From positions 1 to 45,256 of the forward strand of contig JAFEGX010000122.1 in the NCBI GenBank assembly GCA_018239675.1: a DNA stretch of 45,256 bases. The letters are read 5' to 3'. Positions within the stretch are counted from its first letter, which is position 1. Every line of letters begins with the position of its first letter. The notes beneath the pieces were generated by a model, which saw only the letters and a program-made list of their open reading frames with translations, had not been told where the DNA came from and did not search any database. Below are positions 683 to 13,674 of this stretch, piece by piece. Origin of the DNA: Verrucomicrobiota bacterium. GTDB taxonomy: Bacteria; Verrucomicrobiota; Verrucomicrobiia; Opitutales; Opitutaceae. The position numbers and the translations under genes were made by a program.

Positions 683-2194
683 ATGGATTCTGTCCCGCCC
701 GCCTCCCGCCCCGCCCGCCCGCCGCTGGCCGGCCTGGTGCTGGCCGTCGCCCTGGTCGCCTACGGCTGGTTCATCTACCAGGACGGAGCGCCCTATGCCG
801 GCGGGGCTGATTCCTCGGGTTACCTGAACAGCGCCCGGCTCCTTGCGTCCGGCCGTCTCACCGACCGCGTCCGCACCGTGCCGGGACTCGATCCGCCGGC
901 CTGGAACACGTTTTTCCACCAGCCCCTCGGCTACGCAGTGAAGCCGGGACAGACGGAGATGGTGCCGATCTACCCGGTCGGCCTGCCGCTCCATTACGTC
1001 GTCGGCGCCTGGTTCGTCGGCTTCGAGAAAACCGCACGGGTGGTCAACGCCCTTGCCTCGGTCGCCGCCGGTCTCCTGCTCTTCGGGCTGGCCCGCCGGG
1101 TGGGACTCGGGGCCGGCTGGGCGGCGGTCGCGGTGGCGCTGCTCTGGTGCTGTCCGATCTGGATCTTCCATGCGCTCCAGCCCCTGAGCGACTGCGTGGC
1201 GACAGCGTGGGTGCTCGCGGCCGTGCTGGCCGCGTGGCATGCCGCCGACCGGCCCCGTTGGGCGGTCCCCGCGGGCGCCGCGCTTGGGATCGCCGTGCTC
1301 GTGCGGCCCACCAGTCTCCTCGCGCTGATTCCGCTGGCCGTGCTGCTGCCGCGGACCGGGCGCCACTGGAGGCACCTCGTGCTCGGCGGGCTCCCGGCGG
1401 CGGTGTTCCTCGGCTGGTACAACGCGACGCTCTACGGCGGCGTGCTCCAGACCGGCTACAGCCAGGGCGGCAGCGACCTGTGGTCGGCGTTCGGCCGCGA
1501 GTTTGTCGCGGTCAATCTTGCGTTCTTTGCCGCGTGGATCCCGCGCGTCCTGTCGTGGCCGGTCGTGCTGCTGGCGGTGCTCGGCCTGGCCTGGCTGTGG
1601 CCCGGCCAGCGGCGGCTGGCCGTGGCGCTGCTGCTCTGGATCGCGGCCTTCCTCGCGTTCTACACGCCGTATTTCTGCGCCGGCGAAAGCTGGGGCTATC
1701 TCCGCTTCCTGCTCCCGGCGTTTCCTCCCGTCATCCTCGCCGCGCTGCTCGCCGCCCAGCGGCTGGCGGCCGCCCTGCCGCGGACGGCCCGCCGGCTCGC
1801 GCCCGCGCTGGTGGTCCTCGGCACGGCGTCGTTCCAGCTGGCGCTCGCCGACGAGCTCCACCTGACCGACATCCGCAGCGGCGAACGCAACTACTGGGTC
1901 GCCGCGCGGTGGATCCGCGACCACGTGCCGGCCGACGCCATCGTGCTGGCCATGCAGATGAGCGGGGCGATCACGTACTACGATCCCCAGCCGATCGTGC
2001 GCTGGGACCAGATCACGCCCGCGCAGTTCGCCCTCCTCCGGCAGGCGGAGGCGGCGCGGCACCAGCCGCTCTGGGCCGCGCTGTTTCCGTTCGAGCAGCG
2101 GCAGCTGAAGGAGCGGTTCGGTGGGACCTGGCGCGTCGAGGGCCGCGAGGGTCCCGTGGAGTTCTGGCGGCTGGAGGTGCCGGCCGCGCCGTGA
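683..2194 (+). CDS. Polytopic membrane protein, GT39-like glycosyltransferase family
   Basis: The 503-residue protein opens with a transmembrane helix (LAGLVLAVALVAYGWFIY). A periplasmic-type loop with ADSSGYLNSARLLASG comes next, resembling the acidic first loop of GT-C enzymes (PMT/ArnT-like) that bind the metal or sugar donor. About nine to ten more hydrophobic segments follow up to about residue 385. A soluble tail of about 110 residues begins with an NYWVAARWIRDHVP stretch, as is common in this family. The likely role is transfer of a sugar from a polyprenyl-phosphate donor on the outer face of the membrane; acceptor unknown. It diverges from the membrane protein at 1-641 and precedes a GT4 enzyme by 55 bases, which fits a glycan locus. 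Confidence 0.7.
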   Translation: MDSVPPASRPARPPLAGLVLAVALVAYGWFIYQDGAPYAGGADSSGYLNSARLLASGRLTDRVRTVPGLDPPAWNTFFHQPLGYAVKPGQTEMVPIYPVGLPLHYVVGAWFVGFEKTARVVNALASVAAGLLLFGLARRVGLGAGWAAVAVALLWCCPIWIFHALQPLSDCVATAWVLAAVLAAWHAADRPRWAVPAGAALGIAVLVRPTSLLALIPLAVLLPRTGRHWRHLVLGGLPAAVFLGWYNATLYGGVLQTGYSQGGSDLWSAFGREFVAVNLAFFAAWIPRVLSWPVVLLAVLGLAWLWPGQRRLAVALLLWIAAFLAFYTPYFCAGESWGYLRFLLPAFPPVILAALLAAQRLAAALPRTARRLAPALVVLGTASFQLALADELHLTDIRSGERNYWVAARWIRDHVPADAIVLAMQMSGAITYYDPQPIVRWDQITPAQFALLRQAEAARHQPLWAALFPFEQRQLKERFGGTWRVEGREGPVEFWRLEVPAAP

Positions 2195-2249
2195 GCCGGC
2201 GTTTCCGCTTTATGCCCCCGGCCCGGCCGTGAGAGAACTCCCGCGCACC

Positions 2250-3410
2250 ATGCCCACCCTGCTCTTCGACGTCTCCCACACTTGCCACACGCGGGCGCGC
2301 ACGGGCGTGCAGCGCGTCGTGCGCTCGCTCCTGCGCGAGCTGGGCGACGGCGCGCAGGCGGTCACGCACGACCCGTATCAGGGAGCCTGGCGGCCGGTCG
2401 AGGCCTGGGAGCGCGCAAACCTTGAGGCGGAAACACCCGGAGCGAAGCGCGGAGCGCGGTGGCCCTGGTCCGCGCGCCTGCGGGGACGCTGGCGGCGCTG
2501 GACCGGCGCCGCGGGCGCACGGCCGGCGGACGCCGCGGGATTCCTGACGGCGGAGATTTTCTCGCCCGCAGTCGGGGCCCAGCTGCCGTCCGTCTTCCCG
2601 CGGGTGGCGGTCTTCCACGACGCGATCGCGCTCCGTCACCCGGAACTGTCGCCGGCCGGCACGGTGGCGCGCTTCCCCGCGTACCTCGCGGAGCTGCTCC
2701 GCTTCGACGGCGTCGCGGCGGTGTCGGAGGATTCGCGGGCCGCGCTGGCGGACTACTGGCGCTGGGCCGGGGCCGTCTCCCCGCCGCCCGTCGTGGCCAT
2801 TCCGCTCGGCGTCGATCCGGTCCGGCGCGCGGTTCCGGGCGTCCCGCCGGCGGAGCCGGTGGTGCTGTCGGTCGGCACGCTGGAGGGCCGGAAGAACCAC
2901 CTTGCCCTGCTGGAAGCCTGCGAGCGGTTGTGGGCCGGCGGCGCCCGGTTCACCCTGCGGCTGGCCGGCGGCGTGCAGGCCGAGACCGGGCGGCAGGCCC
3001 ACGCCCGCCTGCAGGCCCTGCAGGCCGCGGGACGACCGATCCGGTTTGACGGCGCGCTGACCGACGCCGCGCTGGCCGCGGCTTATGCGGAGTGCGCATT
3101 CACGGTCTATCCGTCGATCGCCGAGGGATTCGGCCTCCCGGTGATCGAGAGCCTGGCCCACGGGCGCCCGTGCCTCTGCTCGGGTCGCGGGGCGCTGGGC
3201 GAGCTTTCGCGGCAGGGCGGCTGCGTGGCCCTGGAGTCGGTCGACCCGGCCACGCTGGCGGCGGCGATCGGCGGGCTGCTGGCAGCGCCGGAGGAGCAGG
3301 CCCGGCTGGCGGCCGCGGCCCGGGCCCGGAACTTTCGCACCTGGGCGGATTACACCCGGGACTTGCTCGCCTGGACTGCCACCCTGCCCCGCCGTTCGGC
3401 CAGAGCCTGA
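2250..3410 (+). CDS. GT4-family glycosyltransferase
   Basis: This is a 386-residue cytoplasmic GT-B enzyme. The N-terminal domain begins LLFDVSHTCHTRARTGVQRV, a signature of a GT4 subgroup with a 'TGxQRV' acceptor-side loop. The C-terminal donor domain has LSVGTLEGRKNHLALLEA and the retaining-enzyme motif EGFGLPVIE (E-x7-E), which holds the nucleotide-sugar. I chose the ATG at 2250; the frame is open 129 bases further upstream, but that would overlap the preceding membrane protein. It is clearly paralogous to the minus-strand enzyme at 4899-5924 (same order of motifs, same DV..T..TG N-terminus), and the two flank the oxoamine synthase. Sugar and acceptor are unknown. Confidence 0.85.
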   Translation: MPTLLFDVSHTCHTRARTGVQRVVRSLLRELGDGAQAVTHDPYQGAWRPVEAWERANLEAETPGAKRGARWPWSARLRGRWRRWTGAAGARPADAAGFLTAEIFSPAVGAQLPSVFPRVAVFHDAIALRHPELSPAGTVARFPAYLAELLRFDGVAAVSEDSRAALADYWRWAGAVSPPPVVAIPLGVDPVRRAVPGVPPAEPVVLSVGTLEGRKNHLALLEACERLWAGGARFTLRLAGGVQAETGRQAHARLQALQAAGRPIRFDGALTDAALAAAYAECAFTVYPSIAEGFGLPVIESLAHGRPCLCSGRGALGELSRQGGCVALESVDPATLAAAIGGLLAAPEEQARLAAAARARNFRTWADYTRDLLAWTATLPRRSARA

Positions 3411-3494: not shown

Positions 3495-4691
3495 ATGGCC
3501 ATTTCCTTTTTCGCCAAAAACAAGAAGGGCATCCTCAACCGCTGTCGCGATGACTACGCGACGAAGATGCGGCTGAAATACGCCCCGTATTATCTGGCGA
3601 TGGAGGCCCAGAAAGGCACGACGGTCCGGCTGGGCGGGAAGGACATGATCATGCTGTCGAGCAACGACTACCTCGGGCTGTCCTTCCACCCGAAGGTGAT
3701 CGAGGCCTCGACCGCCGCGACCCGCAAGTGGGGCACCAGCACCAACGGCGCCCGCTCGTCCAACGGCTCCCGCGTGTTCCACCTCGAGCTGGAGGAAAAG
3801 CTGGCCCAGTTCCTCGGCACCGAGGCCTGCCACATCCACGCCGCCGGCTACCTTTCGGTGATGACCAGCATCGCAACCTTCGCCCAGAAGGGCGACGTCG
3901 TGCTGGCCGACAAGAACCTCCACTCCTGCCTGTGGGACGGCATCCAGATCTCGCGCGCCACGGTGGAGCGCTTCTCGCACAACAGTCCCGACGACCTCCG
4001 CGAGGTCATTGCCTCGTGCAACAGCGACGCCACCAAGCTGCTCGTGGTCGAGGGCGTTTACTCGATGGAGGGCCACATCGCCCGCCTGCCCGAGCTGACC
4101 GAGATCGCGGACGAGTACGGCTGCTTCACGGTGCTCGACGACGCCCACGGCTTCGGCGTGCTGGGCCGGCAGGGCCGCGGCACCACCGACCATTTCGGGC
4201 TCAACGAGAAGGTCGACCTGATCTGCGGCTCGCTCTCGAAGTCCCTCGCCAGCACGGGCGGCTACGTCGCCGGAACGAAGGACGTGATCGAGTATCTGCG
4301 CACCAACTCGAAGCAGACGATCTTCTCCGCCGCGATCTGCGCCGGCCAGGCCGCCGCCGCGATGGCCGCCCTCGAGATCATGCAGAACGAGCCCGAGCAC
4401 CTCGCGCGGCTCTGGGCCAACACCAAGAAGTACAAGGCCATCCTCAAGCAGATCGGCCTCGACACCTGGGAGAGCGAAACGCCCGCGGTGCCGATCGTGC
4501 TGGGCTCGAAGGAGCGCGTCTATCCGTTCTGGAAGGCCCTCCTCGACAAGGGAGTTTTCACCGTGATGTCCATCGCCCCGGCAGTGCCCGCCGGCAAGGA
4601 CCTCGTCCGCACCGCGATCTCCGCGATGCATTCCGACGAGCAGATCGAAAAGATCGGCGAAGCCATCGCCTACGCCGCGAAGAAGCTCTGA
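3495..4691 (+). CDS. Serine-palmitoyltransferase-like alpha-oxoamine synthase (PLP)
   Basis: The 398-residue PLP enzyme belongs to the family that condenses an amino acid with an acyl-CoA or acyl-ACP and releases CO2 (AONS, KBL, ALAS, SPT, CapA). The PLP lysine is Lys249 in GSLSKSLASTGGYVAG; Asp215 and His218 in LDDAHGFG sit on the cofactor ring. The SKSLAS-x-GG(Y/F) variant, followed by an S...IFSA segment, matches what I remember of bacterial sphingolipid-type synthases (SPT and cysteate acyl-ACP transferase) better than biotin-pathway AONS or KBL. No bioF/bioD or tdh neighbours are present. Instead, an ACP fusion, ketosynthase, SDR and lipid glycosyltransferases lie within 9 kb. The start is the ATG at 3495 (MAISFF); the frame is open to 3453. 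Substrate assignment remains inference. Confidence 0.85.
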   Translation: MAISFFAKNKKGILNRCRDDYATKMRLKYAPYYLAMEAQKGTTVRLGGKDMIMLSSNDYLGLSFHPKVIEASTAATRKWGTSTNGARSSNGSRVFHLELEEKLAQFLGTEACHIHAAGYLSVMTSIATFAQKGDVVLADKNLHSCLWDGIQISRATVERFSHNSPDDLREVIASCNSDATKLLVVEGVYSMEGHIARLPELTEIADEYGCFTVLDDAHGFGVLGRQGRGTTDHFGLNEKVDLICGSLSKSLASTGGYVAGTKDVIEYLRTNSKQTIFSAAICAGQAAAAMAALEIMQNEPEHLARLWANTKKYKAILKQIGLDTWESETPAVPIVLGSKERVYPFWKALLDKGVFTVMSIAPAVPAGKDLVRTAISAMHSDEQIEKIGEAIAYAAKKL

Positions 4692-4782
4692 TGCCGGCCA
4701 CGGTGGCCGGTGGAGGAGTTGGAGGTTGAGCGTTGAGGGTTGAAGGGGCGGATGCGCATTGAGCGTCACCTTCGATTTTCGC

Positions 4783-4839
4783 CAGCCTCCTCACGTCGGC
4801 TGCTACGCTTTTCCGGTAGCAGCCGACGTGAGGAGGCTG
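4783..4839. repeat. Perfect 24-bp inverted repeat between convergent genes
   Basis: Arms 4783-4806 and 4816-4839 are exact reverse complements around a 9-base loop (GCTTTTCCG). The element lies in the 207-base gap between the convergent oxoamine synthase and glycosyltransferase genes. No T-run follows either arm, so it is not a canonical rho-independent terminator, although such a stem could still stop or stabilise both transcripts. Imperfect outer arms rich in 'GTTGA(A/G)G' words lie at about 4709-4745 and 4870-4890. It may be a dispersed genomic repeat. Confidence 0.85.
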
Positions 4840-4898
4840 ATCCGACCTGGGCGACTTCGGGTCCGTGACTTTCAACCGAGGACCTTCAACTGCGCGCC

Positions 4899-5924
4899 TC
4901 AGCGCAAGCGCGCCCGAAGCGTCGCAGCCGTCTCCGCCCAGGTCGGCAATGCGCGGAGCCGTGCCTCCGTCGCCAGCCCGGTCCAGAGCGCGTCGTCCGT
5001 CAGCATTTGGCGCAGGGCCGTGCGCCACGCCGCCCGGTCGTTAACCGCGACGGGGAGGCAGCCGCCGCCGCCGGCGTTTTCCCTCAGGACCGGCAGGTCA
5101 CTGCAGACGCAGGGCACGCCCCGCCAAAGCGACTCGAGCAGCGGCAGGCCGCAGCCCTCCGCGATCGTCGGAAAGACCGTGGCCCGCGCCTCGGCATACA
5201 ACCGCGCGAGCTCCGCGTCGCCGACACCTTCGTGATGCGAAATGCCCTTGAACCGTCTCCGCAGCGCGCGGATTCGCGCGACCATCGGCGCGCCAAAGTG
5301 CGGGTTCACGCGGCCCACCACGTGGAGCTCGAAGTCGAGCCCCTCGCCCCACAGGTCCTCACAGGCGTCGAGCAGGAGCGCCTGGTTCTTCCGCGGCTCC
5401 AGGATGCCGACGCACAGGAGGCTCGGCCTCCCGCCCGGCCGCCGCGGCACCCGCTCCGCCGTGACGCGCGGCGAGCCGTCGAAGTCCGACCCCAGCATCA
5501 GCACGTCGACCGGCGGCACCCGGTCGAGCCCCTGCCAGCGCCAGAAACCGACCAGGTCATCCCGCACCGTCGCCGAGATGCCCCAGACGTGGTCGAACGA
5601 CGCCAGCAGCTTCATGTAGCCGGGATGACGGGCGACGCTGTGGGGCCAGGTAATGTGCGGATGCTTGAGCGGGATCGCGTCGGGAAAGATCGCCGACTTG
5701 CGGCCCGCGGCCGCGCGGAGGAACTCGCCAAGGCCCGGCCGCTCGGCTTCCGAAAACAGCTCGGCGGTGAGGAACCAGTCGCCCGCGCCCATCCTCCGGT
5801 CCCACTCCGGCCACCGCACCGGCGTCGCCGCCGCGCCCAGTTCGGTCATCAGCCGTCCCGTCACCCGCATCAACCCGGAGCGGTGGGCCGATTTGCCGGT
5901 CTTCGTGACGTCGAGGAAGATCAT
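4899..5924 (-). CDS. GT4-family glycosyltransferase, paralogue of 2250-3410
   Basis: The 341-residue retaining GT-B glycosyltransferase has an N-terminus (MIFLDVTKTGKSAHRSGLMR) that aligns with the LLFDVSHT...TG start of the enzyme at 2250-3410. The donor domain has LCVGILEPRKNQALLLDACE and EGCGLPLLE (E-x7-E), followed by GVPCVCSDLPVLREN. The ATG at 5924 is chosen because it lies one base after the stop of the upstream gene (TGA, C, ATG), implying translational coupling. It is the last gene of the minus-strand lipid/glycan series. Donor sugar unknown. Confidence 0.85.
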   Translation of the reverse strand: MIFLDVTKTGKSAHRSGLMRVTGRLMTELGAAATPVRWPEWDRRMGAGDWFLTAELFSEAERPGLGEFLRAAAGRKSAIFPDAIPLKHPHITWPHSVARHPGYMKLLASFDHVWGISATVRDDLVGFWRWQGLDRVPPVDVLMLGSDFDGSPRVTAERVPRRPGGRPSLLCVGILEPRKNQALLLDACEDLWGEGLDFELHVVGRVNPHFGAPMVARIRALRRRFKGISHHEGVGDAELARLYAEARATVFPTIAEGCGLPLLESLWRGVPCVCSDLPVLRENAGGGGCLPVAVNDRAAWRTALRQMLTDDALWTGLATEARLRALPTWAETAATLRARLR

Positions 5925-5925
5925 G

Positions 5926-7185
5926 TCAGCGGGCGGGCCCCTCGATGGTCCGCTCGAAATGTCCGAGCAGGCGCTCGGCGTTCTGGTGCGCGTCAAAGTT
6001 CTCCTCCACCCACCGGTGCGCGGCGGCGCGGAGCCGCTCGGCCAGCGCGTCGTCGTGGCCCAGGCGCCGCAGGCCCGCGACCCACGCGTCCGGCGACGTG
6101 GCCGGGGCCACGAGCCCCGTGACCATGTCGGTGACCGCCTCCGTGGTCGCGGCCGCGGGCGAGGTCATCACCAGCGTGCCGAGCGACATCGCCTCCGGGA
6201 TCACGTTTGGCAGGCCGTCGCGGTCCCCGCTCGCCGCGATCACGCCGGTGTGCAGCAGCACGTCGGCCCACTCGAGCTGGTTCCACACCTCGTGCTGCGG
6301 CAGGTGGCCGGTGAAGGTGACGCGCGCGGCGACGCCGAGCTCCCCGGCGAGCTGCTCGAGGCCCGGACGCAGCGGGCCGTCGCCGACGATGTGCGCCTCA
6401 AACTCAACCCCGGCGGCCTGGAGCGCGGCGTAGATGCGCAGCTGGTGGTCGAGGCCCTTCTTTTCGACCAGCCGGGCCACGCACAGGAGATGGAGCGGGT
6501 GCCGCGACGCGCGCAGGCGCTTGAGCGGACGGAGCCGGTCGAGGCCGCGCCGGATGCAGAGCACCTGGGCGGGCGGCAGGCCGCGGGCGAGCAGGGCCTG
6601 GCGGCCCATCTCGGTCGAGGTGTGCACGAAGGCGGCGTGCTCGAGCTTGTCGATGAGCCACCAGTCGCCGCCGTGCTCGTAGATGTCGTAGGCGTGGGCC
6701 GCCGCAGTGTAGCGGTGGCCGTCGATGCGCCACAGCAGCCAGGCCGCGGTGGCCGGCGCGCCGCCCCAGGCGGCATGGATGAGCGTCGGGGGGGAGCGCC
6801 GGAACGACCGGGCCCAGAGGCACGCAAACCCGGCGCCGAGCATGTTCTCCCAGAAATTCAGCCACGACGGCGGCCGCCGGGTGAACAGGCCGTGCAGCAC
6901 CTGCCGCAGCACCTCGGGTCGCCGCCACGACTCGTAGGGAATCATCCAGAACAGCGTGAGGAGCTTCCACTTGTTGAAACGCTCCACGGGCAGTCCCCGG
7001 AACGAACCACCGCCGCCCCAGAGCGAATAGAGCCGCATCGAAACCCCGTGTGCCTTCATGGCGATGATCTCCCGCTGGAGGAAAGTCTCCGTGTTCTTGG
7101 GAAACGTCGTGAAGAGGTAGGCGATGACGGGTTTGGAGTCGGGCAAGATGCCGCGGAACCTAGGCGGAAAAACCCGCGATGCCAC
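5926..7185 (-). CDS. GT4-family glycosyltransferase (colanic-acid/WcaL-like layout)
   Basis: The 419-residue GT-B enzyme has an N-terminal segment VIAYLFTTFPKNTETFLQRE, typical of the subgroup of exopolysaccharide and surface-glycan transferases that begin with a 'FP..SETF' motif. The donor domain has LLCVARLVEKKGLDHQLRIY, then GDRDGLPNVIPEAMSLG, where the acidic pair spaced by about eight residues is the retaining-GT4 nucleotide-sugar site. The start at 7185 is the first ATG in frame; a TTG at the LPDSKP segment (about 7143) is also possible, because the first 14 residues look unstructured. Its stop is one base from the next gene. A long palindrome (7217-7350) separates it from the upstream MGDG-like gene. 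Confidence 0.85.
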   Translation of the reverse strand: MASRVFPPRFRGILPDSKPVIAYLFTTFPKNTETFLQREIIAMKAHGVSMRLYSLWGGGGSFRGLPVERFNKWKLLTLFWMIPYESWRRPEVLRQVLHGLFTRRPPSWLNFWENMLGAGFACLWARSFRRSPPTLIHAAWGGAPATAAWLLWRIDGHRYTAAAHAYDIYEHGGDWWLIDKLEHAAFVHTSTEMGRQALLARGLPPAQVLCIRRGLDRLRPLKRLRASRHPLHLLCVARLVEKKGLDHQLRIYAALQAAGVEFEAHIVGDGPLRPGLEQLAGELGVAARVTFTGHLPQHEVWNQLEWADVLLHTGVIAASGDRDGLPNVIPEAMSLGTLVMTSPAAATTEAVTDMVTGLVAPATSPDAWVAGLRRLGHDDALAERLRAAAHRWVEENFDAHQNAERLLGHFERTIEGPAR

Positions 7186-7216
7186 GAAATATTCTGCGGC
7201 GAATCCAAACGGAATT

Positions 7217-7350
7217 CACAGGAGGCAACGGAGCGAACGGAGAGGGGAAACCGCTAATCTCCGCTAGTCCGCGTTAATGGGCCGAAGTCGATTTCTCCGG
7301 ATTAGCGAGAATCAGCGGATCACTCTCCGTTCCCTCCGTTGCCTCCTGTG
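7217..7350. repeat. Nested 134-bp inverted repeat inside a gene series
   Basis: Outer arms 7217-7244 and 7323-7350 are 28 bases long and complementary except at one position. Inside them, a second pair (around 7251-7266 and 7302-7317, CCGCTAATCTCC against its near complement) also pairs with a few mismatches. The element sits 10 bases past the stop of the MGDG-like gene and 32 bases before the start of the next same-strand gene. It could therefore form a large hairpin in the joint transcript, acting as an attenuator, processing site or 3'-end stabiliser. It has no coding potential. Confidence 0.85.
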
Positions 7351-7360
7351 CGTCCCGGAC

Positions 7361-8578
7361 TTAGGCGTTGGCTTTGCCGTTGGGCGGCGGGAACACACGG
7401 CGCTTGAGCTTGGCGCGGCCGACCTCGTTCGCGAGGGCGACGAGTTCGTCGATCACGACGGTCGGGTCCTCGACGTAGCGGAGCTTCAGGAACCGCTCGC
7501 GCGATCGGGCGTAGTCGCCGGGATCGGCCATCCAGCGATCCATGATGGCGGCGAAATCCGCGGCCGACTCCACCTTCTCGGACTCCGCCCCGTTGTGGAA
7601 GAATTTCCACGTGAGCCGCTCCTGCGGCATGATGCCGCCGAACGCGTTGAAGATGATCGGGCACTCGAAATGGAGCGCCTTGGCGCAGGTCGTCGTGCCG
7701 CCGCGGGTCACAATCGCGTCGCTCGCCTGCATGAGGAGATGCACAATTTCCGAGTAACCCTCGAGGTAGAAGTTGAATTCCGGGTGGATTGCGCGCCAGT
7801 GGACCAGCTCGTTGTAGACCTGCTTGTTTTTGCCGCAGATGATGATCGCCTGGACACGTTCGGCGTATTTCACCAGCGCCGGCAGCAGGGCCAGGTGGTT
7901 GTTCGCGCCATTGCCGCCGGTCGCAAGGAACACGGTGAACAGGTCCGGCCGCAGGCCGAGGCGCTTCTCGCGGAAGGTGGCGCGCTCGCCCGGGGGGATC
8001 ACCTCGAGGTGGGCGCGCGGCAGCATCAGGTAGCCGCGCACGCTGGCCCTCGCCGCCGGGATGCCCTTCTTCACGGCGAAGTCGCGCGCGGTCGGGGTGC
8101 GGGAGATGTAGAGGTCGACCGTGGGTTCGATCCAGTTGCGCGAGTAGCCCCAGCCGCCCGAGAACTCGCCGCAGTACGTCGCGCAGCGGACCTTGTCCGG
8201 CCCGAGGATCTTGCGCGCGAGCTGGAAATAGCCGCGGTTGAGGCAGTCGTGCACGCTGAAAACCAGGTGCGGCCGGTACTCGCGCAGCACCTCCTCGTAG
8301 TAGCGGGAGCCGAACGTGACTTTCCGGCGGTTGAGGTAGCTCAGCACCTCGACGACCGTGTAGAACCAGATGTGGACCCACGGGGCGGCCTGCTGGATGC
8401 GGTTGTAGAAGTTGACGCCGACCCGGTTCACGACCGAGGAGCGCTCCAGCATCTGCTCAATGCGCACGTCGACCTCGTGCCGGTAGAGCTGGAAGCACCA
8501 TTCGGCGAACGCCTCGGCGCGGGCGTCATGGCCGCCGCCGGTGCTTGAGGTCAGGACAAGGATGCGCAGCTTGGACAT
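7361..8578 (-). CDS. MGDG-synthase/UgtP-like lipid glycosyltransferase (GT28-type)
   Basis: The 405-residue enzyme has the hallmark N-terminus ILVLTSSTGGGHDARAEAF. The STGGGH motif is that of monogalactosyldiacylglycerol synthase and diacylglycerol glucosyltransferase UgtP, which move a sugar from a UDP-sugar to a membrane lipid. The C-terminal GT28-like half shows FLATGGNGANNH and DAIVTRGGTTTCAKAL, the latter matching the UDP-binding 'KxGxxTxxEAL' loop. The ATG at 8578 lies 3 bases after the stop of the SDR gene, so the two are probably co-translated. Peripheral membrane association is expected. In this setting the acceptor could be a sphingoid or other lipid made by the neighbouring genes; that is inference. 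Confidence 0.85.
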   Translation of the reverse strand: MSKLRILVLTSSTGGGHDARAEAFAEWCFQLYRHEVDVRIEQMLERSSVVNRVGVNFYNRIQQAAPWVHIWFYTVVEVLSYLNRRKVTFGSRYYEEVLREYRPHLVFSVHDCLNRGYFQLARKILGPDKVRCATYCGEFSGGWGYSRNWIEPTVDLYISRTPTARDFAVKKGIPAARASVRGYLMLPRAHLEVIPPGERATFREKRLGLRPDLFTVFLATGGNGANNHLALLPALVKYAERVQAIIICGKNKQVYNELVHWRAIHPEFNFYLEGYSEIVHLLMQASDAIVTRGGTTTCAKALHFECPIIFNAFGGIMPQERLTWKFFHNGAESEKVESAADFAAIMDRWMADPGDYARSRERFLKLRYVEDPTVVIDELVALANEVGRAKLKRRVFPPPNGKANA

Positions 8579-8581
8579 CGG

Positions 8582-9412
8582 TCAGTCGAGGTCGAAATAG
8601 CCGGCCTGGATGCGCCGGCGCAGCGGCAGCGAGCCAAAGCGGGCGATGAACGGCGCCACGACCGCCTGGAAAAACCGGCCGATCCGGACCGTGCCGCTGC
8701 GGCGGCGCAGCAGCGCGCGGCGCAGCGCGGCCGCGGCGGCCGCCGGGGCCGGCCCCGACCGCATCATCCGCTCGAACGCCGCCCACACCCGGCGGGCCCG
8801 CGGCGTGTCGCTGCCGGCCGTCCGCCGCACCGCGCCCTCGAAGTCGGTCTGGAAATCCCCGGGCCGCACATCCAGGACCACGACGCCGGTACCCCGGGTC
8901 TCCATCAGCAGGCTCTCGGCAAGCGCGGAGAGCCCGGCCTTCGTGACGTTGTAGGCGGACTGGTACGGCAGCGGGAACTCCGCGGCCAGCGACGAGATGT
9001 TCACGAGCGCGGCCGCCGGCCGGCCCTGGAACTGGCGAAGCGCGGCATGGCTCAGCCGCGCCGTGTTCACCAGCATGACCTGGAGCTGCTCCTGCCAGAC
9101 CGCGAAGTCGGTCGCCGCAAAGTCGCCGAACACCCCGTAGCCCGCGTTGTTGATGACGAGGTCGAAACCGCCGGCCGCCTGGGCCGCCGCGGCGAAGACG
9201 GCCTCCGCCCGGTTGCCGTCGCGCAGGTCGAGCGCCACCGCATGAAAGCCGGCGCGCGGGGCCAGGGGCGCGAGCCGCGCCGGGTCGCGGGCCGTGCCCC
9301 AGACCGCCACGCCGTCGGCGAGGAGCATCTCGGCGAAGGCGCGGCCCAGCCCGGTGCTCGCGCCGGTCACGAACGCGGTGCGGTAGTACGCGGAGACGCG
9401 GGCGGTCGGCAC
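8582..9412 (-). CDS. Short-chain dehydrogenase/reductase (ketoacyl or ketosphinganine reductase candidate)
   Basis: This 276-residue classical SDR has the cofactor loop TGASTGLG at residues 17-24 and NNAG at 88-91. The catalytic set is Ser140/141 with Tyr154 and Lys158 (YNVTK). An Arg after beta-2 (GTARDPARL) suggests NADP(H). The C-terminal extension with IGRFFQAVVAPFIARFGSLP is hydrophobic and arginine-flanked, as in membrane-associated SDRs acting on lipids. The GTG at 9412 is chosen because it follows the ketosynthase stop by two bases; the frame remains open to 9532 but would overlap. Position between a ketosynthase and a lipid glycosyltransferase makes reduction of a beta-ketoacyl or 3-ketosphinganine-type intermediate the natural guess. 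Confidence 0.85.
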   Translation of the reverse strand: MPTARVSAYYRTAFVTGASTGLGRAFAEMLLADGVAVWGTARDPARLAPLAPRAGFHAVALDLRDGNRAEAVFAAAAQAAGGFDLVINNAGYGVFGDFAATDFAVWQEQLQVMLVNTARLSHAALRQFQGRPAAALVNISSLAAEFPLPYQSAYNVTKAGLSALAESLLMETRGTGVVVLDVRPGDFQTDFEGAVRRTAGSDTPRARRVWAAFERMMRSGPAPAAAAAALRRALLRRRSGTVRIGRFFQAVVAPFIARFGSLPLRRRIQAGYFDLD

Positions 9413-9414
9413 GG

Positions 9415-10677
9415 TTAGCGGGCTTGCTTGAAGACCAGCGCGACATTCGCGCCGCCGAAGCCGCTGGCGTTGTTCATCACGATCGTCGGGCCGGTGGGCA
9501 GCGACGTCCGGATGATGTTCAGGCCGGCGCACTCGGGATCGAGCCGGCTGATGTGCGCCGAGCCGGGCGTGAAGCCGTCGCGGATCGCCAGGGCGCAGAA
9601 GCTGCTCTCCATCGCGCCCGCGAGCGAAAGGCCGTGGCCGGTGAGCGACTTGGTGCTGCTGATCGCCGGTCGGGCGCCAGCCGCGCCGAAGACCGCCTTG
9701 AGGGCGCGCGCCTCGGACGCGTCGCCGATCGGGGTGGAGGTCGCATGCGCGTTCACGTAGTCCACCGCCTCCGGCGCCAGGTGCGTGGCGCGAAGCGCGT
9801 GCTCCATCGCGGCCCGCAGGCCATGCCCCTCGGGATGGGAAATCGCGACATTGTGCCCGTCGGAGGCCTGGCCCCAGCCGAGCACCTCGCAGTAGGGCGT
9901 CACGCCGCGGCGGGCGACCTCCGCCTCCGACTCAAGCACGAGCACCACGCCGCCGCCGGTGCCGACAAAGCCGTCGCGGGCCACGTCGAACGGACGCGAG
10001 GCGAGGCCGGGGTCGGTCTGGAGCGACAGGGCGCGCATGCCGGCAAACGGCAGGATGGCGTCGACGTTCCCGTCCTCCGCGCCCACCACGAACATCCGCT
10101 TCTGGCGGCCGAGGGCGATGTCGTCGAAGGCGTAGCCGAGCGCGTGCGACGAGGAGGCGCAGGCCGAGGCAAAGCCGCAGGACGAGCCCTTGATCTTGAA
10201 ATGGGCCACCAGGTTAAACTGCACGGTGCCGGCGATCGAGGCGACGATGCCGAGGGGCGAGCAGCGCATCACCCCCATCGTGTGCATGCGGTGCATGAGC
10301 TGGCCCATGAAATAGGGCGAGCCGCCGGACGCGGCATACAGGCCGGTCGAGACATTCGAGATGTCGGCGTCGGCCAGCCGGGCGTCGGCCACGGCCTGGA
10401 GCATGGCGCACCACGCGTAGACCACGTTCGGCGACATGCCGCGGAGGATTTCCCGCTTGATCGTGTACGGCGGCGGGATCGTCCAGTCCTCGCAATCCGT
10501 CGAGTCCATCACGAAATCCCGCACCGGCGCCGCCACCTTGACCGGGATCGAGGGGTCCTGGAACGGCGGGTACAGCATGAAACCGTGCCGCAGCTCGCGC
10601 AGGCTGGAGGTGACGCGGGCCGCGTCGTTGCCGATGCTGGTGATGAAGCCGAGGCCGGTGATGAAGACTCTGGGCAT
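9415..10677 (-). CDS. Beta-ketoacyl-ACP synthase, FabF/KAS II-like
   Basis: This 420-residue thiolase-fold condensing enzyme has a complete catalytic set: Cys173 in SACASSSHAL, His311 in NAHATSTPIGD, Lys343 and His348 in STKSLTGHGLSLAG. It elongates an ACP-bound acyl chain with malonyl-ACP. The C-terminus ends NNASGFGGANVALVFK, the usual FabF ending. The N-terminus (MPRVFITGLGFITSIGND) fixes the ATG at 10677. It is a specialised copy rather than an evident fab-operon member: no fabD, fabG-acpP or plsX genes surround it. It is tightly linked to an SDR, and its own ACP is probably the fusion protein encoded 274 bases upstream. Decarboxylating synthase activity is expected; chain length and product are unknown. 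Confidence 0.9.
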   Translation of the reverse strand: MPRVFITGLGFITSIGNDAARVTSSLRELRHGFMLYPPFQDPSIPVKVAAPVRDFVMDSTDCEDWTIPPPYTIKREILRGMSPNVVYAWCAMLQAVADARLADADISNVSTGLYAASGGSPYFMGQLMHRMHTMGVMRCSPLGIVASIAGTVQFNLVAHFKIKGSSCGFASACASSSHALGYAFDDIALGRQKRMFVVGAEDGNVDAILPFAGMRALSLQTDPGLASRPFDVARDGFVGTGGGVVLVLESEAEVARRGVTPYCEVLGWGQASDGHNVAISHPEGHGLRAAMEHALRATHLAPEAVDYVNAHATSTPIGDASEARALKAVFGAAGARPAISSTKSLTGHGLSLAGAMESSFCALAIRDGFTPGSAHISRLDPECAGLNIIRTSLPTGPTIVMNNASGFGGANVALVFKQAR

Positions 10678-10803
10678 GCGGAGGAGGTGGCGGCGCCCCA
10701 GCGTCAGACCTGCCGGACAGCGGGAGGTTCGCGCGGAGGCCAATGAACTCCCTTCGATGAAGTCAGTTCACGCGCGATGGTCAACAACGGCGGCGGACTC
10801 GGA

Positions 10804-10827
10804 ATTCCGGATTTCGGACTCCGGAAT
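10804..10827. repeat. GGAAT-word hairpin upstream of the ketosynthase
   Basis: Arms 10804-10811 (ATTCCGGA) and 10820-10827 are perfect complements with an 8-base loop; a T5 run follows on the plus strand at 10829-10833. No plus-strand gene ends here, so terminator function is doubtful. Related GGAATCCGGAAT words recur at about 10926-10950 in the same gap and at 31782-31814, indicating a repeat family. Confidence 0.6.
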
Positions 10828-10951
10828 CTTTTTGCCCAAGACCACAATTCCAAGCGACCGCCTCGGGTAGCCGACAGTCCGCCAAAGGCGACAACGACGT
10901 AACCTGCCAGATGGCTGACCCGACCACCGGAATCCGGAATGCGGAATCAGG

Positions 10952-11932
10952 TCACGGGCTGCTGACCGCCGCACGCAGCGGTGTCGGCGAGTGGGCGCCG
11001 TTCGAGCCGTTGACCACAGCCGCGGAATCCTTGGCCGGCACGGGCTGGCTGGGAGCCTCGGCAAAACCGAAGGTCAGCGTGATTTCCTCGGCGATCGCGG
11101 CCTTCTCCTGGCCGACGCGGATCGAGCCCTCGAACGTGGCCAGCGGCATCTTCATGCGCTTCGGCTTGATCGAGAGGGTGAGGATGTCACCCGGCCGGCA
11201 CATGCGGTGGGCGCGCACGCCCTCGCAACCGGTGAAGAAAATCGTCGTCGGGCTGATGACCTTGCCCGGCTCGGTCGAGGCGCCTTCCAGGAGGAACAGC
11301 ACCGCCAGCTGGCCCAGCGCCTCCAGCATGATCGAGGCCGGCATCACGGGGTTGTCCTTGAAATGGCCCTGGAGGAAGAACTCCTGGCCCGTGATCTTGT
11401 ACTTCCCGTTCGCGCCGCTGGAGCTGACCGAGGCCTCGTTCAGGAAGAGGAACGGCGGCTGGATCGGCATGATCGCGGCGATCTGCTCGATCGGCAGGAA
11501 CTTGGTCGGCTTCGGCAGCTCGAGCCCGCGCACCTTGCAGTCAATGAAGGTCTTGACGTCGCCAACGGTGCGGAGGTTCCGCAGCTCGTCATTGTTGATC
11601 GACATCTGGAGCACATCCTCCACGAGGATGACGATCTCCATCATGGTCAGGGAATCGATGCCCAGGTCCTCGATCAGGCGCAGGTCATCATCGGCATCCT
11701 TCAGCTTCACCCGCAGGTCGGGCTCGACGAAACGCTCGATCACGCCAATCACGACCGCCGGAAGGTGCTCCGGGTTGCCGGTCTTGCGAAACTGGACCGC
11801 GGCCTCGAAAGTCGAGGGCGAACAACGCTTCAGAGCTTCGCGGAGGGCAGCTTCGTCCTCGGGTGCAAACGGTTTGGCTGGAAAGACAAACGGTTTTGAG
11901 CTCCCCACATGAGGTTGAACAGCTTCTGGCAT
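10952..11932 (-). CDS. Acyl-carrier-protein / FabZ-like dehydratase fusion
   Basis: The 326-residue protein joins three parts. Residues 1-60 are an unrecognised N-terminal segment. Residues about 61-135 form an ACP domain with the phosphopantetheine serine Ser94 in EDLGIDSLTMMEIVILVED. Residues about 145-290 form a hotdog dehydratase with His190 in GHFKDNPVMP and Glu204 in MLEALGQ, the two FabZ catalytic positions. A low-complexity tail follows. Such an enzyme would carry a beta-hydroxyacyl chain and dehydrate it in cis. ATG 11932 is chosen because the frame upstream to 12031 is unlike a domain start. It is the first gene of the minus-strand lipid series, diverging from the GT4 gene at 12110. 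ACP-fused dehydratases are unusual in primary fatty acid synthesis, so a dedicated lipid or polyene-like product is likely. Confidence 0.88.
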   Translation of the reverse strand: MPEAVQPHVGSSKPFVFPAKPFAPEDEAALREALKRCSPSTFEAAVQFRKTGNPEHLPAVVIGVIERFVEPDLRVKLKDADDDLRLIEDLGIDSLTMMEIVILVEDVLQMSINNDELRNLRTVGDVKTFIDCKVRGLELPKPTKFLPIEQIAAIMPIQPPFLFLNEASVSSSGANGKYKITGQEFFLQGHFKDNPVMPASIMLEALGQLAVLFLLEGASTEPGKVISPTTIFFTGCEGVRAHRMCRPGDILTLSIKPKRMKMPLATFEGSIRVGQEKAAIAEEITLTFGFAEAPSQPVPAKDSAAVVNGSNGAHSPTPLRAAVSSP

Positions 11933-12060
11933 TGTTCTCAGCTTGTACCTTACAGGGTGTTGCAATGTAAACCCATTTTTTGGGCGTAAGCCCCATGCGG
12001 ACATGGCGGAAAATCCAACATCGTTGGTCATGGATGTATTGATGGCACCGCGAGCTACGC

Positions 12061-12088
12061 TTGCCAGCCCGGTGCCCTGACCTAATCT
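12061..12088 (+). promoter_or_regulatory. Possible sigma70-type promoter for the GT4 gene at 12110
   Basis: TTGCCA at 12061-12066 and TAATCT at 12083-12088 are separated by 16 bases, giving a start about 15 bases before the ATG at 12110. The match is weak at -10 and promoter consensus in this lineage is uncertain, so this is only a candidate within the 177-base divergent region, which is noticeably less G+C-rich than the genes. Confidence 0.25.
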
Positions 12089-12109
12089 GTCCGCCCTCTT
12101 TCACCGCGC

Positions 12110-13276
12110 ATGAGCGCATCCGACTCCTCCCCTCTCCCGGCCGGCCCGATCTTCCTGATCACCCACGAGTTTTATCCGGTGCGGGGCGGGATCGCGACCT
12201 TCACGGAGGAAATCGCCAAGGCGACCGCGGACCTGGGCTACACGATCGAGGTCTGGGCCCAGTCGGCCCCACCCCAGCACGAGAAGAGCTGGCCGTTCCG
12301 CCTGCGCCGGCTGCCGCTGAAGGGGTCCCACGATCTCTGGTGCCAGTTCCGGCTCGCCTGGCAGCTGGTCCGCGCCCGCCGGCAGCTCCGCCACGCCATC
12401 GTCTATCTACCGGAGCCGGGGCCGATGATGACGATGATGCTGCTCCAGTTCTTCAACGCCTTCCGTCCGCGGCGCCTGGTGCTCACGTTCCACGGCTCGG
12501 AAATCCTGAAGTTCTCCGAGAGCGGGCTGCGCCGCTGGCTCGCCGGGCGGCTGATCCGCCACGCGACACGCGTCAGCACGCTCACGAACTACACCCAGGA
12601 GCTGCTGCTCGCCTCGTTTCCCGAGGCCGCCGACAAGATCTTCCTGACGCCCGGCGCGCTCCGCACCGATTTTGCCGTCCTGCCGCCCCGGCCCGCCCGC
12701 CGCCAGCGTGACACGATCGTGGTCCTCACGGTCGGCCGGCTCCATCCCCGCAAGGGCCAGCTGCTCACGCTGCGCGCCCTGCAGGCGCTCGCCCCCGAGG
12801 TCCGCCGCCGGCTCGAGTACTGGATCGTCGGCCGCGAGGGCAAGTCGAGCTACGCCAGCGCCCTCCGGGACGAGGCCCAGGCGGCGGATTTTCCGGTGAA
12901 GTTCCTCGGCAACCTGCCCGACGAGGAGCTGGCCGAGATCTACGAGCACTCCGACATCTTTGCCATGACCAGCGTCCAGCACGGCCACAGTGTCGAGGGC
13001 TTCGGCCTCGTCTACCTCGAGGCCGCCGCCCACGGCCTGCCGGTGGTGGCCCACGCCGTGGGTGGGGTCGGCGAGGCGGTCCAGGACGGTGTCACAGGCA
13101 TCCTCGTCCCGCCCCACCGTCCCGCGCAGCTCGCCGCGGCGTTCGAGCGCCTGATCCACGACGAGGACCTCCGCCACCGCATGGGCCACGCCGGCCGCGC
13201 CTGGGCGGGCCGCAACTGCTGGCGCGAGTCCGCCGCGGCCCTCTTCGGTACCGGCACGCCCAACCCCGATTCATGA
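12110..13276 (+). CDS. GT4-family glycosyltransferase (PimB/WcaI-like layout)
   Basis: This 388-residue retaining GT-B enzyme has an N-terminal FLITHEFYPVRGGIATFTEE, the classic 'P..GG...' acceptor-domain loop of GT4 enzymes such as phosphatidylinositol mannosyltransferases. The donor domain has LTVGRLHPRKGQLLTLRAL, then HSVEGFGLVYLEAAAHGLPV with the E-x7-E pair. It overlaps the downstream thioesterase gene by 4 bases (ATGA), implying coupled expression. It diverges from the ACP-dehydratase gene, so the two halves of the locus may share one control region. A lipid-linked or surface-glycan acceptor is plausible but unproven. Confidence 0.88.
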   Translation: MSASDSSPLPAGPIFLITHEFYPVRGGIATFTEEIAKATADLGYTIEVWAQSAPPQHEKSWPFRLRRLPLKGSHDLWCQFRLAWQLVRARRQLRHAIVYLPEPGPMMTMMLLQFFNAFRPRRLVLTFHGSEILKFSESGLRRWLAGRLIRHATRVSTLTNYTQELLLASFPEAADKIFLTPGALRTDFAVLPPRPARRQRDTIVVLTVGRLHPRKGQLLTLRALQALAPEVRRRLEYWIVGREGKSSYASALRDEAQAADFPVKFLGNLPDEELAEIYEHSDIFAMTSVQHGHSVEGFGLVYLEAAAHGLPVVAHAVGGVGEAVQDGVTGILVPPHRPAQLAAAFERLIHDEDLRHRMGHAGRAWAGRNCWRESAAALFGTGTPNPDS

Positions 13277-13674
13277 TCCAGTCCCGCTCGCAGGTCACGG
13301 TCCGCTATGCCGAGACCGACATGATGGGGATCGTTTACCACGCGAACTATCTGCCGTGGTTTGAGGTCGCCCGCACCCAGCTGCTGCGCGAACAGGGTTT
13401 TCCCTACCGCCAGCTCGAGGCCGACGGCTATCGCATCCCGGTGCTCGAGGTCAGCGCCAAATACCTCCGGCCGGCGCTGTACGACGACACGCTCGAGATC
13501 GTCGCGACCATTCGCGAGAAACCGCTGCTCCGGATCCGCATCGAGTACGAGGTGCGCCGCGGCGAGGAGCTGCTTGCGACCGGCACGAGCGCCCACGCCT
13601 TCTGCGACCTCCACGGCCGGCCGACCCGCCCGCCTGCCGCGTTCGTCGCGCTGATGAACCAGCGTTTCGCCTGA
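13273..13674 (+). CDS. YbgC/4-hydroxybenzoyl-CoA-type hotdog thioesterase
   Basis: The 133-residue single-domain hotdog protein begins VTVRYAETDMMGIVYHANYL. The 'D-x(2)-G-x-V-Y/H-x-x-x-Y' motif is that of the 4HBT/YbgC family, and Asp at position 16 is the expected catalytic carboxylate. It would hydrolyse acyl-CoA or acyl-ACP thioesters in the cytoplasm. In many bacteria YbgC belongs to the tol-pal cluster; here it is instead fused operonically to a GT4 gene beside ACP, ketosynthase and SDR genes. That makes a role in releasing or editing acyl chains of the local lipid pathway plausible. Length is normal for the family. Confidence 0.9.
   Translation: MIQSRSQVTVRYAETDMMGIVYHANYLPWFEVARTQLLREQGFPYRQLEADGYRIPVLEVSAKYLRPALYDDTLEIVATIREKPLLRIRIEYEVRRGEELLATGTSAHAFCDLHGRPTRPPAAFVALMNQRFA

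Follow-up and report, generated by a model that had tools for sequence, protein, structure and literature searches.

We examined a 45,256-nucleotide stretch of DNA (hereafter, the window), which is contig C25 in a draft genome of 3.85 Mb from the verrucomicrobial family Opitutaceae, and in it a group of genes surrounding an alpha-oxoamine synthase (AOS). The AOS gene (3495..4691, plus strand) encodes a 398-aa PF00155 protein on the SPT side of its family. It is followed by six minus-strand genes: two GT4 glycosyltransferases, GT4b (4899..5924, with a likely start at 5924) and GT4c (5926..7185); a GT28-type glycosyltransferase (7361..8578, PF04101), distantly related to MGDG synthase and processive diacylglycerol glucosyltransferase; a classical short-chain dehydrogenase/reductase (SDR) of the ketone reductase type (8582..9412, PF00106); a KAS I-like ketosynthase (KAS; 9415..10677, PF00109/PF02801); and a fusion of an acyl carrier protein (ACP) with a FabZ dehydratase (10952..12031, probably starting at 11932, Met34; PF00550 and PF07977). 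Two plus-strand genes complete the interval, the glycosyltransferase GT4d (12110..13276) and a YbgC/FadM-type thioesterase (13273..13674). The original prediction, made from the DNA letters, had listed these genes, including three GT4 proteins, together with their catalytic residues, and all are present as placed once start sites are allowed for; a fourth GT4 gene, GT4a, lies just outside the interval, upstream of the AOS (2121..3410, plus strand), and often adjoins the AOS in relatives, its membership being uncertain. The minus-strand genes are partly tightly packed, with spacings of 2 nt between KAS and SDR (given a GTG start at 9412), 3 nt between SDR and GT28, and 1 nt between GT4c and GT4b (given the ATG at 5924), and wider gaps of 274 nt between ACP-FabZ and KAS and 175 nt between GT28 and GT4c. 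Since the AOS is convergent to this row, it does not share its transcript.

The AOS retains the lysine, histidines, and aspartate conserved in the SPT active site: Lys249, which binds pyridoxal phosphate (PLP), His143, and Asp215/Asp216-Ala-His218. Its best curated model is the Bacteroidota SPT of NCBIfam (382.6 bits against a cut-off of 640). Among solved structures, the best match is the Sphingobacterium SPT (313 bits), followed by a Thermus thermophilus AONS/KBL (260), the Sphingomonas SPT (238), the best KBL (219), CapA (193 and 190), ALAS (188), and the best plain AONS (186); 7u7h, also among these relatives, is named in the Foldseek listing as an Alistipes cysteate transferase. For a Foldseek search, we used an AlphaFold model whose quality was moderate (pLDDT 72, against 46–53 for the other four); SPT chains filled ranks 1–8, AONS/KBL-type enzymes came next, and CapA first appeared at rank 24. 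The Sphingobacterium/Bacteroidota SPT (PDB 3a2b, 8guh) shares 39% identity with the window protein in the Foldseek alignment, as well as the PLP lysine and the active-site histidines.

Phylogenetic analysis placed the AOS on the SPT side, and its assignment to KBL or AONS was dropped. In a 44-row maximum-likelihood tree, it grouped with the SPTs at a support of 100/98, with KBL and BioF apart, and its nearest row outside the Opitutales was an SPT-like enzyme from Rubrobacter (97/94). A 43-row tree containing more Opitutaceae homologues recovered the SPT side at 100/98 and the KBL/AONS side at 98/92, with BioF joining another long branch, such that its own place is unsure; both trees were built from sequences other than CapA and ALAS. 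Joining the Bacteroidota SPT and the window protein as direct sisters was rejected (p-AU 0.014), and monophyly of the seven classical SPTs was not (p-AU 0.24). The window clade sits on a long stem (0.81–0.91 changes per column in the two trees). At 19 alignment positions selected to discriminate SPT from the KBL/BioF references, the window protein carries the SPT state in 11, the other state in 3, and neither in 5, and it has clade-specific residues near the active site, for example Trp147 after His143 and Ala117 where the SPT references have Thr. The trees thus support an SPT-side enzyme separate from KBL and AONS, with nesting within SPT and a position beside it both compatible, and the AOS forms a separate deep lineage on that side. 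The best 80 named loci retrieved with the AOS profile were 66–91% identical to it and came from records titled Opitutaceae, Opitutia, Opitutae, Opitutales, Verrucomicrobia/Verrucomicrobiota, or a genus; most are metagenome-assembled genomes (MAGs), a label absent from Cephaloticoccus capnophilus and Opitutaceae bacterium EW11. These titles suggest that the family of the genome comparisons below is Opitutaceae. In C. capnophilus (L217), the AOS is accompanied by GT4a, GT4b, and GT4c. The only other AOS found in the genome at an E-value of 1e-5 groups with KBL and adjoins a gene that, by eye, resembles threonine dehydrogenase.

The genes for acyl-chain building and ketone reduction are catalytically intact as well. 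The elongating-ketosynthase triad of the KAS is complete (Cys173/His311/His348, counted from the Met at 10677), the fusion protein carries Ser94 and His190 (counted from Met34 of the 359-aa open reading frame, corresponding to Ser127 and His223 of the full frame) together with the FabZ glutamate (MLEALGQ), and the SDR carries Tyr154/Lys158 (counted from the GTG at 9412). Despite these residues, KAS and FabZ score far below equivalog cut-offs; the closest PDB relatives of the KAS are KAS I enzymes (FabB). For the SDR, a fold search (model pLDDT 91) returned uncharacterised SDRs first and then mixed ketone reductases, including FabG, and the KdsR model scored 93.5 against a cut-off of 400. We therefore dropped its designation as a proven 3-keto-sphinganine reductase; given its nearest folds, it may serve either a 3-keto lipid or the acyl chain. 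The GT28 protein exceeds the Pfam cut-off for PF04101 (25.1 against 22) and lies below that for PF06925, MGDG_synth (21.1 against 25); it shares the GT28-type fold family with MGDG synthase and processive diacylglycerol glucosyltransferase (PDB 4wyi and 9wde; 58 and 49 bits) as a remote relative.

The AOS and the ACP-FabZ fusion are present and absent together. Among 100 family genomes, the fusion was detected in 92 (E<=1e-15) and the AOS in 89 (E<=1e-90), both in 88, and neither in seven (G011, G044, G047, G061, G068, G084, G098); four genomes had only the fusion (G010, G073, G087, G088) and one, G070, only the AOS. For this co-occurrence, Fisher's test gave p = 1.6e-7, and p = 2e-4 when confined to the 82 genomes with completeness of 90% or more and contamination no higher than 5%; neither value is corrected for relatedness. 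A phylum-wide sample of 194 genomes had the fusion in 25 (E<=1e-30), the AOS in 23 (E<=1e-100), and both in 22; the fusion occurred alone in G207, G215, and G246, and the AOS alone in G242, whose AOS cluster (L098) holds a divergent ACP. Across 16 genomes of our choosing, SDR and window-type AOS agreed in 14, the exceptions being G207 and G010 with the SDR only; in the draft assembly of G010, KAS, SDR, and GT28 lie on a 6.7-kb contig that ends within GT4c (L246). Three genomes that are 98–99% complete (G044, G061, G098) lack window-type AOS, ACP-FabZ, and SDR alike, and their best KAS matches reach 55%, 53%, and 37%, respectively; G044 has an AOS of 35% identity fused in a long frame. Their congeners G075 (of G044 and G098) and G017 (of G061) have AOS, ACP-FabZ, and SDR, with a KAS at 73% and 78%. 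This joint absence suggests at least two losses of the whole set as one unit. GT28 is also missing from these three genomes, but the congener G075 itself has only a 33% GT28 match.

Physical linkage is recurrent, though not universal. In the 88 genomes with both genes, AOS and ACP-FabZ share a contig in 43, and in 37 of these no more than 15 kb separates them (median 7.1 kb). Co-location in relatives, which the original prediction required, held for these 37, but not for the six in which the two genes are far apart on one contig, nor for the 45 with the genes on different contigs, some perhaps through fragmentation. Of the 80 named loci, 51 extend 8.5 kb or more downstream of the AOS; 28 of these 51 carried four or five of GT4c, GT28, SDR, KAS, and ACP-FabZ, and none carried two or three. 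Some genera show two separate blocks, AOS-GT4b-GT4c-GT28-SDR (L091, L101, L103, L104, and, with gaps, L102) and KAS-ACP-FabZ-GT4d-thioesterase-QueG-AroK (L076, L088, L143, L144, L145); the pairs L091/L076, L101/L144, L102/L143, and L103/L145 each come from one genome. GT4d keeps with ACP-FabZ and KAS when the AOS block sits at another site. A genome from a different family of the same class (L081, G172) has GT4d, ACP-FabZ, KAS, SDR, GT28, GT4c, and AOS all within 20 kb, at 36–55% identity to the window and in changed order, and in L098 AOS, GT4c, SDR, KAS, ACP, and GT28 stand together at 35–57% identity. This recurrence in a distant family with changed order, together with the correlated presence and absence, places the grouping beyond chance.

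The thioesterase, which had been proposed as part of the pathway, accompanies GT4d, a QueG-like gene, and AroK even where the AOS block lies elsewhere; it is probably a neighbour, and we dropped it as a pathway member. We also looked for a further partner common to all unlinked AOS genes. None of eight conserved neighbours checked (a polyprenyl synthase, MurJ, DUF4013, an FAD oxidase, a GT2, an ABC ATPase, an epimerase, and one protein without a family) occurred in more than 8 of 61 stretches. One set of relative regions was picked for unlinked or other-contig AOS, so counts over that set do not represent a sample. Near GT28 in the two distant relatives, we observed a class III aminotransferase (L081:6006-7268 and L098:13053-14276) whose scores of 211.5 and 190.1 bits fall well short of the HemL cut-off (527.3).

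Bacterial ceramide synthesis as known employs Spt, the reductase CerR, and an N-acyltransferase (PMC11324152; PMC11334938). We searched for the latter two with yardsticks drawn from the neighbours of SPT-like genes on Rubrobacter, Aureispira, and Pseudomonas plasmids: a GNAT protein present in the Rubrobacter and Aureispira yardsticks and an epimerase-type protein present in all three. The GNAT protein was called bCerS (bacterial ceramide synthase) from context, that is, its plasmid neighbours and its company with SPT, ACP, AasR, and CerR in L129. The bCerS yardstick had no match in the genome of the window at E<=1e-5, and neither bCerS nor CerR had one at an E-value of 1e-3 in the window or in 40 relative regions; for CerR, this search was regional, not genome-wide. 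The 40 regions contained a single AasR match (2e-5, L071) and two weak ACP matches. In 20 further stretches, a 28% CerR match in L142 proved to be a generic epimerase with a strong Epimerase family match, and CerR-like epimerases also occur in L129 and L130. In the family, bCerS matches were found in 6 of 41 genomes (E<=1e-5; strong in G026, G031, G037, and G009, weak in G028 and G035), and G094 was identified in addition to this search. The original prediction had described the pathway as self-contained and likened its SDR to the reductase of known sphingolipid loci. The first description is not supported in view of these absences, nor is the likeness, the CerR yardsticks being epimerase-type proteins and not classical SDRs.

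Ceramide-type sets do exist in two Opitutaceae-type genomes: SPT, bCerS, CerR, ACP, and AasR in G009 (L129:1177-12748), and SPT, bCerS, and a CerR-like gene in G094 (L130:6015-10311). In the 43-row tree, the SPTs of these two loci fall among those of Bacteroidota and proteobacteria and outside the window clade. G009, G094, and G037 all carry a window-type AOS besides a separate SPT-type locus with bCerS, which argues that the window locus is an addition to the classical pathway and not a version of it. In G037, the second locus encodes a single long protein in which ketosynthase, ACP, and dehydratase domains precede the AOS (L128:4637-8737); similar long AOS frames occur in G044 (L241:8454-11891) and G075 (L239), and a bCerS-like gene adjoins the fused AOS in L128 and L241. 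This fused architecture looks like a separate, polyketide synthase-type sphingoid locus. Outside the phylum, plasmid-borne SPT-like AOS genes accompany a GNAT and an epimerase-type protein in Rubrobacter radiotolerans (L110:5845-9212) and Aureispira anguillae (L112:1684-5513), possibly representing ceramide genes on plasmids. On pPNP1, a plasmid of Pseudomonas, genes for a fatty acyl-AMP ligase, an epimerase-type protein, an ACP, and an SPT stand in a row (L119:39-4176), and this SPT exceeds its NCBIfam cut-off (617.8 against 500).

Several further loci bear on the KAS and ACP genes. In G215, ACP and FabZ are two adjacent separate genes (L085:9667-10508), which suggests an origin of the window fusion from two genes arranged in this way. 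An ACP paralogue that shares the N-terminal extension of the fused ACP is encoded beside genes resembling the window GT4s on contig C13 of the same genome (L146:10289-10765) and in L147, and ACPs with this extension but no GT4 matches occur in L148–L150; these second-ACP loci yielded no explanation of the fused ACP. A second KAS and ACP pair was found in G207 (L244:7330-10459) and G242 (L245:9725-12838), with the KAS 49–55% identical to that of the window, and also in L240, L242, L243, and L228. In L244 and L245, the pair adjoins a B12-binding radical SAM protein; the L244 copy of this protein reaches 355.9 bits with the ladderane-associated lipid model TIGR04072, whose cut-off is 360.

In our best reading, the locus is a family-core, bCerS-independent pathway for a glyco-sphingoid lipid. 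KAS and ACP-FabZ, with a ketoreductase, would assemble a particular acyl chain, carried by the fused ACP. The AOS, judging by its placement, catalytic residues, and linkage, would then condense the acyl thioester with an amino acid in a decarboxylative reaction; serine is the most likely substrate and would give a 3-oxo-sphinganine-like ketone. The SDR would reduce this ketone or serve the chain-building cycle, and GT28 and the GT4 enzymes would add sugars. We propose that N-acylation, if any, is not performed by the known bacterial ceramide synthase. The genes with their intact catalytic residues, the SPT-side placement, the shared distribution and recurrent linkage, and the lack of a detected bCerS in this genome are observations; the steps themselves are proposed. 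We assign a probability of roughly 0.6 to a glycosylated sphingoid-type lipid made by these steps.

A number of observations weigh against this reading. The AOS misses all three NCBIfam SPT models (382.6/640, 338.2/500, and 268/670 bits), and a tree constrained to unite the ten SPT and SPT-like references to the exclusion of the window clade was 12.7 log units worse and not rejected (p-AU 0.116); the predicted SPT-like nature of the enzyme stands as to its separation from the KBL/AONS clade in both trees, while inclusion among the SPTs is a possibility. AOS and ACP-FabZ are not within 15 kb of each other in 51 of the 88 genomes, and 23 of the 51 named loci carry at most one of the five partner genes. 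In G215 and G246, KAS and ACP-FabZ are present but AOS and SDR are not, and G207 has KAS, ACP-FabZ, SDR, and GT28 but no AOS. GT28 is missing or distant in 12 AOS-bearing family genomes: six have only 32–39% matches (G001, G005, G035, G050, G075, G079), and six more have no match at E<=1e-60 (G041, G053, G056, G097, and the incomplete G070 and G077). The sugar part of the product thus probably varies. Finally, the lipid table of PMC13274419 gives only phosphatidylethanolamine, phosphatidylglycerol, and diphosphatidylglycerol for two Opitutaceae, and phosphatidylcholine in addition to these for an isolate of a sister family; the words 'sphingo' and 'ceramide' are absent from the main text. This table speaks against an abundant sphingolipid in those strains, which may or may not carry the genes.

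Under the same pathway logic, an AOS using alanine, glycine, cysteate, or another amino acid would yield a glycosylated amino-lipid and not a strict sphingolipid. Its own lineage on a long stem, its scores below every SPT cut-off, and the residues Trp147 and Ala117 would suit such a substrate change, yet SPT is the closest characterised class by both sequence and fold, with CapA lower on each count (193 and 190 bits; Foldseek rank 24), and we regard this alternative as unlikely, if the strongest of those considered. Somewhat less probable still is that KAS and ACP-FabZ, with or without the SDR, make a special fatty acid for general lipids, for example an unsaturated one in the manner of FabB/FabA, with the AOS a neighbour that has a separate job. 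The proximity of the KAS to KAS I, the retention of KAS and ACP-FabZ in G215 and G246, the separation of the two blocks in several genera, and the C16:1w5 given for two Opitutaceae in PMC13274419 are all in keeping with this. A general function, however, should not follow the AOS, and AOS, ACP-FabZ, and SDR are jointly absent from G044, G061, and G098; moreover, both blocks stand together in L081 and L098.

The four GT4 genes around the AOS raise the question of whether its lipid is a polysaccharide anchor or primer instead of a free membrane glycolipid. The ACP paralogue beside GT4-like genes in the same genome (L146) and the MurJ- and GT2-type genes near the AOS in some relatives (e.g., L091) fit this idea, but no polymerase or exporter was identified in the window interval, the neighbours in relatives being only partly annotated, and we consider it improbable. 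A role for the lipid as a stand-in for missing lipopolysaccharide was dropped, as LpxC is present.

The preferred reading, a bCerS-independent glyco-sphingoid pathway, can be compared with the Caulobacter-type ceramide pathway (aasR, cerR, acpR, spt, cerS; PMC11324152). Both have an SPT-type AOS, a nearby dedicated ACP, a reductase, and clustering. In contrast, the genome of the window has no detected bCerS, the window lacks a CerR or AasR-like gene, the reductase is a classical SDR and not an epimerase-type CerR, the SPT lineage is distinct, and KAS, the ACP-FabZ fusion, and glycosyltransferases are added. Spt-like proteins have been reported in 22 Verrucomicrobiota MAGs from the Black Sea (PMC11334938), and the potential of this phylum to make sphingolipids is thus already on record. 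Those proteins are from the same phylum, SPT-like, and often without bCerS or CerR nearby, but the section on them describes no KAS, ACP-FabZ, SDR, or glycosyltransferase partners. Our search of the literature on Opitutaceae or Verrucomicrobia sphingolipids and on AOS-ketosynthase clusters found no such locus described among the papers listed, most subscription journals lying outside its coverage. More tentatively, the locus might represent a further bCerS-independent route, in which a separate SPT lineage is fed by its own ketosynthase and ACP-dehydratase and is served by a classical SDR and lipid glycosyltransferases, producing a core lipid of a whole verrucomicrobial family to which a few members add ceramide-type genes.

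Bacterial sphingolipid makers are usually recognised by Spt together with bCerS and CerR, and screens for bCerS and CerR would miss a gene set of the type found in the window. In 89 of the 100 sampled family genomes, an SPT-type enzyme is present that is tied, by presence, absence, and linkage, to a different set of genes. The locus predicts an unreported glycolipid class, as well as an ACP-bound substrate for the AOS.

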